This document shows, one piece after another, positions 4,548-61,400 of a DNA stretch of 64,000 bases. Position numbers and translations under genes: made by a program. How positions within the stretch are numbered: the first letter of the stretch is position 1; every line of letters starts with the position of its first letter. Source of the DNA: Glandiceps talaboti. Taxonomy: Eukaryota; Hemichordata; Enteropneusta; Spengelidae. The notes below the pieces were generated by a model. It was not told where the DNA came from. It worked only from the letters and a program-made list of their open reading frames with translations, and did no database searches. The DNA lies in assembly GCF_964340395.1 (NCBI RefSeq), contig NC_135556.1, positions 14,147,910-14,211,909 on the forward strand, written 5' to 3'.

Positions 4548-7500
4548 GTTGGTATTTGTATGTGCTCGTGATGGATTACTACCCGATATATTATCTATGA
4601 TTCACGTGGACTATCTTACACCATTGCCGTCACTGCTTACGATTGGAGTACTCTCATTGGTAGGTACTGTATTAACCAATCAAAGGATGTGTCTCATTGG
4701 TAGGTTAACCAATCAAAGGATGTGTCTCATTGGTAGGTAATCAATCAAAGGATGGGTATTACTGGTAGGCACTGTTAACCGATCTCGCTGGTAGGTACTG
4801 CATTACCGCCCGGTGTCTAATCTTCCTTTTCTTTCCAAGCTTATAGAACACATTGTTTCAGTTCAATTGAATTCATATTTATCTGACAACAATTTATTCG
4901 CGAAATACCAGTCAGCTTATCGAGCGGGTTATAGCACTGAAACGGCCCTTCTAAGAGTCCAAAATGATATATTAGGCTCACTGTAATTGATAAACGTAAA
5001 GATGTAATATTGATTTTGCTTGATCTTTCTGCTGCCTTTGACACGATTGATCATGACATTTTATTACACAGATTGCGTAATAGATATGGCATCAAGGGCT
5101 CAGCCTTGGAGTGGTTTCGTTCCTATTTGATTGGTCGATTCCAATCTGTGAGTGTTGGAGCAGTCGTGTCAAAGGCACAGTCTCTCGATTGTGGTGTCCC
5201 CCAAGGCTCCGTCCTTGGACCTGTTTTGTTTACGCTTTACACAGCCCCCTTGGAGGATATCATAATCCGTCATGGTTTAAATTGTGTCATGTATGCGGAC
5301 GATTCCGAACTGTATCTCACGTGTGAGGGTGACCGGGTTCCGACTTCAGTTATTGAGTCATGCGCTAGTGAAGTTAGACAGTGGATGCGTGATAATATGC
5401 TCTGTCTTAACGACGGTAAAACAGAAATTGTGCATTTTTCTTCTAAATTTGGTGGTGCGGGTCCGGTACCCCGGTGTGAAATACGGATTGGCGATGTCGA
5501 TATACAACCATCTAATGTTGTTCGTAATCTTGGTGTTTCCATGGATTCGGCGGCTACTATGTCTGATCATGTAATTAATATTTGTAAAGCTGCCTCTCAT
5601 GCTCTGTGGAAAATTGGCAAAATTCGCACTCTTCTTGATCAAAGTTGTACTGAAAAACTAGTTCATGCTTTTATTACATCACGTTTAGATTATTGCAACA
5701 GTTTATTATATGGTCTCCCACTTCAACAAATTCGTAAGCTCCAAATTATCCAGATTCAGCAGCAAGACTTGTCATTAGAAAGAAAAAAGTTGAGCATATT
5801 ACCCCAGTTCTTCATTCATTACACTGGCTACCTATTCAGAAGCGCATTGAATTCAAAGTACTCTGTATTGTTTTTAAAGTTCTTAATGGGTGCGGGCCCT
5901 CATTTCTAGGCGATATATTAATGGTTAGATCCACCCGTCGTTCCCTTCGGTCGCAATCCGGTAGCGTGGTGAATTTGCACCAACCGATAGGGAACACTGC
6001 ATACTATGGTGATCGGGCCTTCTCTATTTGCGGCCCACGCCTTTGGAATGCCCTGCCATCATGTCTTCGTTCTTCATATACTTTGAACAGTTTTAAATCT
6101 GCCTTAAAATATCATCTTTTTAGATCTCATTATTATTAACTTTTAACTTTTTTACATTTCAGTTTTTTTGTAAATGTCATTCCGTGTCTTTGTATTTTTT
6201 TTTATCCTGTTTCATATTATGTTTATACTTGTGTATATGTACATTTTAAATTACTTTTATACTTTTGTTCAGCGCATTGAGATTGTTTTAATGTAATGCG
6301 CTCTATAAGAAATAAATATTATTATTATTATTATTATTATTATTATTATTATTAGTCAATCAAAGGATGAATCTTGCCTAAGATACCATTACCAGACATT
6401 GGCACAAGTTAAATTTAATCTAGGAAACGTTGTGTTGAAATCAATTATAGGGGCCCACCACTCCAGGAAATAGAGACATTTTCATAAAATATGGGTTCTA
6501 GAGAGACATTTTGTTTACATCAGCTACAACTACTTGCGATTTCAGAAAAACATCAAATTGATGTTAAAGTGCCATTTAGGGTAGCTTTGCGTAGGAATTG
6601 CATCATGGGAGTCGGCAGAAATAATATATTCGCGGTTGCTCAATGAATACTCATGATAATTATTTTGAAGGCAATAAGCCCTCGGGAGTCATTCAAGCAC
6701 ACTCTTTCAATACATGATTAAACATGGAATTTAACATTAATATTTTGGGGATGATATTAGGCCTAAAAAAATGTTTGGCTCCGGTTACGAGACACCACCT
6801 AGTTTTTCACTGCCGACCTTAAACAGTTTTGACGTGTTCGAGAAAAATAAATAAAATCGCAAGAAATAGTAGATGCGGAAACTGACATCAACTTAAAAAG
6901 ACAATATAAAACTGTTCTTCCAATCTGTAATGGCTGTACATCTGATCTGAATAAACCAGTAACACAGACCATATGGAACTACCTGAACTAGAAACTCACA
7001 CATGAAAAAAAAAATCAATAAATCAATGAAAAAATCTACCTACCCCACCTATTCTAAAATTGAACGTAATCGGAACCACACAATCTTTTTTGTGAGGCCT
7101 TACTTTTCTTTAATATCAATCCTTGCACCATTTCTCATTTCAGGTGTATCTTGTGATCTCAATTTTTTACGGGGAAGGTATATATCAACTGCTTAATTTC
7201 CTCGCGTTTCCGTATTACTTGATAATATGTGGAACCGGTGCTTCCCTACTATACCTTCGATGGAAGCAACCAGACATTCCTCGCCCATTTAAGGTAAATG
7301 GCGTTCTTCACGTATGTTGTAGGTCACCCTTCAAATTGTCTGCAGTAATAGTATTATTAGAATCTAATCCACGAGCTTTGCTTTTCACAATGAAAGTCAT
7401 TTTACAATTTACTCCATCTTTTCGAAGTTTTGCACATACTAGTTTAGACACAATTCAAATGTATGTACATCCATATTCACAGAGATAAACCTTCTGTTTG

Positions 7501-58482: not shown

Positions 58483-61400
58483 TTAGACATCATCCTTGTC
58501 ATTTTTGTCCTCACCAGAACACTCAGCTTCTTCACCTTTAACCCCATCACCTTTGACCTTTGCCATGTCACCTTTGACCTCATCTGTGTCAGCTGCTTCT
58601 TTGTGCTTTAATGTATCATCTTCATTGTCATCCTTTATGCTAGTTTCTCCACCTTTGACCTCATCACCTTTGACCTCACTTTCTTCACTTTTGACCTCTG
58701 CACCCTCAACGCTAGCTTCTTCACCTTTGACCTTATCATCTTTGACCCTACTTGCTTCACTTTTGACCTCTTCACCTTCGACACTAGCTTCTTCACCTTT
58801 GACCTCAGCACTATTGTCCTTTGCTTCTTCAACTCTGACCTGATCACCTTTGACCTCTTCACTGTCTGGTGTTTCTGTTCCTTCCTCAAATCCGACGTCC
58901 TTCTTCTCTGATTCATCCTCTACGTAGATGATATCTTCAGGATTAGGAGCAGCCGGCAAGAACTCTTCTCCGGGACAAATCTTTTCAAATAACTTCTTTG
59001 CCTAGAATAGTAGTGTAACACAGTGAAATGATGGTGACTCTGGAAAATTCTTTTCAAATAACTTCTTTGCAGTGAAATGATGGCAACCCTTTTTTTTTTC
59101 TCTGGACCTTTGGATTTCAAACATGATACGATGCAAAATGTAGATGTGTCAAATATATACATGAATCAAGAATTCGATATATGTAGATACTATTGTGAAG
59201 ATATTCACTTTGGAGCAATTTAAAACATTTTAGCAAAAAAGACATTTATTTTTATTTTATTTCACACTTTGGCTCCACTAAATAGTCACATCACTTACTG
59301 TAAGATAACGCATTGAATCACATTTATTTCCATACATTGCCTTTATTACCTGTGATCAAATTTTTCTGAAGAAAGTGACTGTATTTCACACTTATTTTGG
59401 TGCAAATTTTGTTACTGCTAAACAAGCTCAAATCAGTTTAGCCCCAAAATTGTGTATTCACAGTATGTTGAGGGCACCCTTCCCTCTGTACATAACTCCT
59501 TGTTGGACCATCACTCCAACAAAGTAACTGATCTCCATTGATCTGTATTCTTTACTATTATAAAGGTCAACTATCATAGAGGTCAAAGTTGAAAGACTTG
59601 TATCTCACAGACTATACTAACCTGTACAACAGCATGTTCAAATCCTATAGATGGGCCTGGTCCCGATGTAACTAACACATTCTCGGGTAGATCAGTGAAT
59701 GCCTCGTCAACACACTCCGATGTATCTGACTGAGTAAAGTACATACACCATAACACTTTGGGTTTCTCGGTTTCAGTTCCACCGCTTTGTTCTGCATCTG
59801 ATGGTGACTCTGAAATGTAATTTAAATCAGTCAAACCTAAGTGTCTTTATCCAAGTAACAATGCTTTCGAGAGAAAGTGTGTATGATGCAACAACTTGAA
59901 AAGTTTAAAAACTGATACTATATTACTATTACAAATCCTCACAGACTGAGAAAAAAATGTTTGTAACATAGGATCATTAATGTGTTGTCTATCTGTAGTA
60001 AAATGATTATATACAATGTGTACATCATTTTCAAAATTGGAATGCTATAATGGTACTATTTTGGTCATTCTCGTAGGCCAGAGCACACATTTCTGCTCAA
60101 GCAACCTCTGGGTGGTGTGTCTTGGACGTTGTCGTAAAAGAGGCCGTGTGGTTTACGATGGTGATTTCGGCATGTTTCTTACTTCTAGCAATGACTGATA
60201 CATAGCCCTTTGATAATCACAAAATATAAATTTCCCTACTTTAATCAGCACTTCCTGAGGTCACATCTAAATGCCTACCACCCTCATCACCAGAATCTTC
60301 CCGTTACAGACTATGATGGCCTGATTTTAGAAATGAACTGTACAAAGTACAAGATACCATTACATGTAAAGTCTTCCAAGGAGAGAATCTTGATCTTACC
60401 TTCCTCAGCAGGTTCAAATAACAAATCTACAGCATATTTCAGGTCTTCTTTAGCTGTTTTACTACCTTTACATGTCATGTGAACTACATCTGAAATAAAT
60501 TAATATAGCAGAAGAAAAAAAATGTAAGTGTATTATTATGGTTTGTTCAATATTCTTCTATCAACACTAATCACATTGTAAAAGACTTACAAAAAAAACA
60601 GCTACAATATTACTAACAAACATATACATTTCAAAAATTACAAAAGTTTCAGTTTTGGCACAAAATTGATTAGAGTTTGGTGGAGCTTGGATTCCAGATT
60701 TGGAGTTTTTTGAAAATTTTACTAGCATTACCCTGAGAGCTCCAACATTTGAGGGCGCCCTTCTTTGGTTTTTGTTTTGTATGTAATGAAGGAGAAAATG
60801 ATGAATAGTATAAATGGCTTATTAAGAGAACTGCTCAGCATTGGTTGAGGTATGACTCCACAGAGTGTCTTCTAGTTCTCCTACAAGACGAACATACATC
60901 TTTACTCTATACTTACACATTCCTTTAGGACATGCATAGGCAGCATGGTTTAGCTCTATTACTTTGACTGGGTCTTGACCTGGTGTTGGTGGAATTGTTA
61001 GCAAAGTCACCTACAAAATGTCAACAACAACAAAAATCATGATTCAATTTAGGTTTGATTTATATTCAATCTGTCTTTATTTATGAAAACAAATGATAAA
61101 TAAAATTGACATTGGTCAGATAATTATAGGGTAAAGTACTCAATAACAGCACTTATCCACTGCCACACATGTTGTGAATGATATATGGAAAGTAAAACAA
61201 GAATAAAACAAATTATAACTTATTATTTGAGAGAAAGTGTGCAATTTATCAGTAGAGGTATATACCACTGTGGCACACATTATACTGAACACATATTGCC
61301 GGGCCATGAGAGCTATAGCACCCGTTTATTACACCCGAGGGACTGTGAAGGCCGAGGGAAATAGCATGTGATTCTGGTAACTCACAGTCACAAGGGGGTA

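Follow-up and report, generated by a model that had tools for sequence, protein, structure and literature searches.

Several minisatellites in a 64,000-bp stretch of contig C9 (NC_135556.1, positions 14147910-14211909; referred to throughout as the window), in a genome of 590 Mb and 47 contigs, begin inside an exon, run across its end and carry the splice donor along in the repeated unit. They are of the type known in amphioxus as 'mirages', and it is probable, at about three in four, that they reflect abundant local tandem duplication that is filtered by selection and tolerated in introns. With the same confidence we hold that no targeting of duplication to exon ends is required to account for them, a roughly two-fold excess at donors being possible. 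Donor-carrying units are seen directly both in the window and in unrelated genes on other contigs.

Donor-carrying arrays in the window

The names of the genes in the window were confirmed by Pfam on exon translations: CWH43 (PGAP2IP/CWH43, three domains), an SLC7-like gene (AA_permease_2 domain), CHM/REP (RAE1/2 domain) and two EPHX2 paralogues, EPHX2-A and EPHX2-B (HAD plus alpha/beta hydrolase). Exons of the EPHX2 genes were placed by tblastn, the query being a human EPHX2 sequence; exons of the other genes were taken from open frames, and splice sites were assigned by a simple score for GT and AG positions. Arrays were listed by Tandem Repeats Finder (TRF), and copies of a junction were sought by an ungapped test and an edit-distance test on 30-base junction windows.

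Units that carry a donor are certain at CWH43 exons 4 and 9. There are nine copies of the junction window of exon 4 (junction at 44830) that match at no fewer than 25 of 30 bases, and three of that of exon 9 (49717) that match at 29-30. At CWH43 exon 6 and in the SLC7-like gene such units are clear but diverged: the exon 6 junction (47013) has one copy 60 bp on, with 4 edits, and the SLC7 junction (approximately 4660-4664) has copies with indels, at 7 edits, and none that the ungapped test finds. A LINE-type (long interspersed nuclear element) reverse transcriptase occupies 4795-6139 (RVT_1 on 4968-5906), its frame starting directly after the SLC7 donor array.

The first-pass annotation of this DNA had named eight places at which a repeat unit crosses an exon boundary. 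The four just described stand, each with a splice donor in the unit, and the others stand in part at most; the arrays are real, and the number of boundary-crossing places was overstated. At the stops of EPHX2-A and EPHX2-B, arrays are indeed present and do cross the stop codon, but they contain no splice site, and counting them as two events was rejected because they align to each other, leaving one shared event. No copy of the EPHX2-A last-exon acceptor (9782) was found in either the ungapped or the edit test. The last exon of CHM is a weak case in which 22 exon letters are copied and the acceptor is not: TTCTAG does not recur upstream, and the junction window has no copy in the ungapped test and, at best, one with 8 edits in the edit test. 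The same exon holds an in-frame coding minisatellite (58640-58856, with periods of 36 and 72 bp) that gives a repetitive VKGDEVKGEEASVEG-type tail. The array that had been attributed to the acceptor of CWH43 intron 12 was rejected as boundary-crossing, since it is wholly intronic and neither the donor (51910) nor the acceptor (52966) is copied.

With an exon duplication in EPHX2 that is described below, independent splice-carrying events in the window number five, three of which are in CWH43. The claim that the arrays do not form one mobile family was borne out by comparison of the units, which differ from site to site, so that no common unit has been inserted repeatedly. When a 401-bp piece of the CWH43 exon 4 array was used as query, it matched its own locus only (two overlapping matches, in a search that skips very common words).

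A near copy, defined as one with at most 5 edits to the 30-base junction window and within 800 bp, is present at 5/41 donors and 1/46 acceptors of the window, compared with 490/7611 intron windows and 39/1058 exon windows; adding SLC7, at 7 edits, brings the donors to 6/41. CWH43 has three donor hits among its 11 scored donors. Since its introns are 27% locally repeated (408/1516 windows), this is approximately what they would lead one to expect. Moreover, the window had been picked for its arrays, and an array-blind sample was therefore required.

Junctions in an array-blind sample

Exons for this sample were located through the Pfam families kinesin, myosin head and CCT, in 194 kb of this one genome outside the window. 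There were 277 family matches (142 kinesin, 78 myosin and 57 CCT), of which 127 lie in the stretches used, the choice not being governed by arrays. Nineteen kinesin loci from a repeated cluster and 12 Aldedh matches were left out, together with junctions whose acceptor score was 0 or below or whose donor score was 2.5 or below, and low-complexity windows (two junctions in the 100-exon test). The early junction tests, on 100 and then 127 exons, missed exons lying in arrays, and tblastn of the sampled exons completed the set, with 2 of 37 hits left out as likely array copies. The completed-exon count also leaves out junctions within 60 bp of a segment end. The donor array C6_11844437 is outside the counts because its exon had been noticed through the array.

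With the window included, 258 kb (51 unique segments) contain 97 non-redundant arrays with a period of at least 10, which cover 6.8% of bases. For the completed exons, array coverage is 1.3% in exons, 4.9% in introns at 30-300 bp and 8.0% at 300 bp and beyond. Locally copied windows in the 127-exon set amount to 1.3% in exons, 0.9% (1/116) at acceptors and 3.5% (4/113) at donors, and in introns they rise with distance from 2.8% at 30-60 bp through 3.2% (60-150 bp), 5.6% (150-300 bp) and 6.3% (300-600 bp) to 9.0% (600-1500 bp). Five of the 229 junctions in that set are copied, against a mean of 9.2 at paired intron positions of the same locus. Among the completed exons, arrays contain 6/146 donors and 3/149 acceptors, or 9/295 junctions, the junction-crossing units being 48-141 bp long and present in 2.0-2.9 copies; only two of the 60 sample arrays lie wholly inside exons, which make up 30,900 of 193,805 bases. 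The first-pass annotation had seen a concentration of arrays at exon ends and had proposed a shuffle test of their overlap with junctions. Run on the full array extents in these sampled loci (~194 kb), the shuffle gives nine crossings observed and 12.2 expected, with no excess, and the concentration is not borne out. Exon ends are not where arrays concentrate, because intron coverage is higher and falls towards the exons.

Two side observations belong with the sample. A kinesin motor exon (profile 245-320) recurs at numerous sites, commonly as a tandem series spaced at ~1.8-2 kb and with other kinesin exons (~56-164) alongside, perhaps as a multi-copy locus or an element with a kinesin-like gene; the places (loci L014-L031 and others) are at C22:18.85M and 19.49M, C23:19.04M and 19.24M, C9:3.39M and 3.98M, C11:22.93M, C18:2.6M, C5:1.39M, C2:3.5M, C12:22.6M and C15:22.8M. 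The motif CCAATCA, suspected from window arrays of three origins, is found in 4/60 units outside the window against 0.75 expected, which is a hint only, other 7-mers showing a similar excess.

Table 1. Arrays and duplications in the window (positions 1 to 64,000) and at sampled loci (contig:position); a slash marks the junction
Feature	Position	Strand	Basis
SLC7-like exon end with 3-4 imperfect copies (~33 bp), donor ...CATTGGTAG/GT carried	4651..4794	+	TRF, edit test
EPHX2-A array across last-exon end and stop, 3.8 x 67 bp	9497..9752	-	TRF, copy tests
EPHX2-A 119-bp tandem duplication including entire 86-bp nucleophile exon and both of its splice sites; copies separated by 33 bp	15458..15677	-	
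EPHX2-B array across last-exon end and stop, 3.3 x 69 bp, homologous to the EPHX2-A array	25471..25699	-	TRF, alignment
EPHX2-B counterpart of exon duplication, internal deletion in downstream copy	31789..31959	-	
Donor mirage at CWH43 exon 4, 11 x 43 bp, with GGGG/GTAAGTAATAA in the unit	44798..45289	+	TRF, copy tests
Donor mirage at CWH43 exon 6, 2 imperfect copies ~60 bp apart	46966..47080	+	edit test; absent from TRF list
Donor mirage at CWH43 exon 9, 5 x 93 bp, with GATGT/GTAAGTATC in the unit	49656..50117	+	TRF, copy tests
CWH43 intron 12 minisatellite, 28 x 36 bp, intronic only	51948..52952	+	TRF, copy tests
CHM/REP last-exon start, 22 exon letters copied upstream, not acceptor	58980..59083	-	copy tests
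Myosin exon with GESGAGKT loop, 99 bp x 2	C4 (29915462)		
Myosin donor array, two copies 141 bp apart, ~40 exon bases	C5:6412532		
Myosin example outside the window	C5:12020258		
Myosin example outside the window	C12:393244		
Myosin acceptor array, 105 bp x 2.3, upstream copy with own CAG	C17:10720348		
Kinesin array, 56 bp x 2.5	C18:9206361		
Kinesin array; predicted donor probably misplaced, likelier CACAG/GTATGTC in same unit	C22:6524386		

Origin and likely silence of the copied splice sites

The explanation that we favour starts from the high rate, shown by the array density, at which short local tandem duplications are made in this genome. Where a duplicated segment happened to include a splice junction, the array would start in the exon and the splice site would be copied along. 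Selection would then sort the outcomes: duplications within exons would mostly be lost, and those across acceptors partly lost, while those across donors would be nearly silent, the first donor still ending the exon and the extra copies becoming intron, usually behind an in-frame stop. Later growth of the array and homogenisation of its interior may have occurred by unequal exchange or slippage, as is suggested by the CWH43 exon 4 array, in which the inner units are nearly uniform and the first, coding unit is divergent.

The expectation of silence can be compared with the reading frames. Downstream copies of the donor window lie after an in-frame stop in 22 of 25 instances from ten cases, and in 18 of the 20 that keep GT; this count excludes the EPHX2 junctions and the SLC7 alternative donor, and includes the doubtful kinesin donor on C22. 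In CWH43 exons 4 and 9 and in the myosin on C4, the first donor itself supplies this stop, as a TAA or TGA. The copies not preceded by a stop are one in SLC7, one in the kinesin on C18 (which has no GT) and one in the myosin at C5:6412532, which is in frame and open. Because the copies generally follow an in-frame stop, a protein made with a later one would in most cases be truncated, and the arrays are expected to stay silent as long as the first donor works.

Several points weigh against this explanation. Use of the first donor is itself a prediction. Of the nine crossings in the sample, seven fall in myosin loci, two in kinesin loci and none in CCT loci, and the weaker tolerance supposed at acceptors does not reach significance (4/113 donors copied against 1/116 acceptors; Fisher P 0.21). 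A further point concerns founding units, which are arguably a better null than array extents because an array that crosses a junction would need the junction in its first duplicated segment. By this test 9 of the 60 sample arrays carry a junction against 3.4-4.7 expected (nominal P 0.003-0.03), with donors at 6 against 1.7-2.5 (nominal P 0.007-0.03) and acceptors at 3 against 1.7-2.4 (P 0.24-0.43). For the 23 arrays of the window, picked as it was for its arrays, donors are at 3 against 0.43 (P 0.007). A purely neutral reading does not predict a founding-unit excess. It should be noted that these P values are nominal and come from several related tests on three gene families; with weighting by event, donors are at 6 against 2.42 (P 0.037) for the completed exons, and at 4 against 1.6-1.7 (P 0.08-0.09) with fewer exons.

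The same donor excess is what would be looked for if donors were true hot spots of duplication, for example through R-loops, or through replication that stalls where exon meets intron. We consider this unlikely, given that coverage falls towards exons, that the full-extent shuffle is without excess and that acceptors are not clearly in excess either. The conserved exon half of a crossing unit would, in addition, keep old copies recognisable for longer, and tolerance alone would favour donors; detection or survival bias could yield a donor excess of 2-3 fold. Strong donors are present in 6/60 units outside the window against 0.78 in a non-exon control, but this enrichment was rejected as proof of hot spots since annotated exons are missing from the control, which inflates the excess. 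The balance of sense over antisense donor motifs with a score of at least 9 in the same 60 units (7 against 2, P 0.09) is suggestive only. We read the donor data as tolerance with a possible two-fold bias, and not as proof of targeting. The first-pass annotation had proposed that duplication is either favoured at exon ends or tolerated near them; tolerance at donors is upheld and a concentration at exon ends is not, coverage showing no excess, while the 2-3 fold founding-unit excess at donors may reflect either targeting or such a bias.

It is considerably less probable that the arrays are functional, the extra donors giving regulated isoforms or serving as seeds of new introns or exons. The high proportion of copies behind a stop speaks against it, as does the finding of no gained intron among the sites looked at; the in-frame second donor of the myosin at C5:6412532, 141 bp on, speaks for it, and so does a 119-bp duplication in the EPHX2 genes that had been overlooked in the first pass. 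The duplicated exon encodes the GHDWGG nucleophile and is doubled in both paralogues, and 31 of the 33 letters of the spacer between its copies are the same in EPHX2-A and EPHX2-B, which argues that the two duplications are most likely one event. EPHX2-A has two open, slightly different copies; EPHX2-B has kept the upstream copy whole and has lost part of the downstream one. A spacer of 33 bp is too short to be spliced as an intron and the exon is 86 bp long, so at most one copy would be usable in frame. This exon, with part of one copy lost in one paralogue, is the only real hint of splice-site switching. The earlier proposal that such duplications could feed intron gain or splice-site switching is thus sustained as regards the duplication of AG- and GT-bearing segments and the EPHX2 hint, and not as regards gained introns.

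That the repeats were collapsed or inflated during assembly is hardly credible. Errors are common in tandem arrays, and in amphioxus the BflGb6 array was apparently misassembled in the draft genome, according to the passage concerned (PMC3087553); here, the units differ by substitutions, two paralogues share arrays with divergence between them, and an assembly of 590 Mb in 47 contigs is suggestive of long reads. Beyond tolerated duplication lies a bolder view, to which we would give little credence: that donor-spanning duplication is a favoured and ongoing process at a few per cent of donors and actively supplies spare splice sites and duplicate exons such as that of EPHX2, in which case new exons and introns could come from mirages throughout the deuterostomes and not in amphioxus alone. 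The origin of spliceosomal introns and alternative splice sites is an old question, and tandem duplication of segments that bear splice sites is among the few routes that are concrete. A genome in which ~3% of sampled junctions (9/295) lie in arrays is a natural test bed for the use of duplicated donors; by extrapolation, that rate would correspond to thousands of such sites if it held genome-wide.

The host and comparison with known systems

There is evidence from the mitochondrial contig (C40) as to the host. ATA is found at four COX1 positions and fits isoleucine; one of these is the MPIMIGG site, where isoleucine is usual. Nine mitochondrial genes contain no AGA and no AGG, and the four AAA codons are all upstream of the likely starts of COX1 and CYTB, with none seen inside the likely genes. 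In Balanoglossus AUA is read as isoleucine, and AAA and AGG are absent; in Cephalochordata AUA is methionine and AAA lysine (passages of PMC3121625). The code thus points to an enteropneust hemichordate. The contig itself is a concatemer with a period of 15,435 bp and 53% G+C, with CYTB between ATP6 and COX3, a position that does not obviously match the Balanoglossus gene order as given in the same passages (PMC3121625).

A limited search of the Creative Commons-licensed PMC literature found no exon-boundary minisatellites outside cephalochordates. The earthworm metallothionein gene has intronic minisatellites together with duplicated exon copies, which, as far as the passages show, are not boundary-crossing arrays. 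The Rogers model of intron gain by tandem AGGT duplication shares with the present arrays the duplication of segments that hold splice signals, but the copies here follow the first donor and are intronic, and no gained intron is shown. Tandem exon duplication with mutually exclusive choice is also a known type. The EPHX2 exon is like it in structure, being duplicated with both splice sites and a gap of 33 bp, and unlike it in that one copy has already decayed in EPHX2-B.

The closest likeness is to the mirages of amphioxus, minisatellites across exon-intron boundaries of Adh3, the globins, TnC and PGBD5 (described in parts of PMC3087553 and PMC3902484). In both, tandem units lie over an exon boundary, many include GT or AG, both types of boundary are affected and copies are few. 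In this genome a unit lies over an exon-intron boundary at CWH43 exons 4, 6 and 9, in SLC7 and at 9/295 sampled junctions, and unit lengths and copy numbers are those of minisatellites (43 x 11, 93 x 5 and 33 x 3 in the window). Amphioxus units are, in the passages concerned, 10-72 bp in Adh3, 60 and 108 bp in PGBD5 and 150-160 bp in the globins BflGb6 and BflGb9, and BflGb6 has 6 and 3 copies in two haplotypes (PMC3087553, PMC3902484). The globin arrays are homogenised inside and not at the edge, and intron gain from mirages has already been proposed for amphioxus (both from PMC3087553, in part); the Adh3 and globin data suggest that splicing is normal despite them (passages of PMC3087553 and PMC3902484). 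If the mitochondrial evidence on the host holds, mirages extend beyond the cephalochordates. The difference is one of host and not of structure, and the arrays are of a known class, in what appears to be another deuterostome phylum, the hemichordates.

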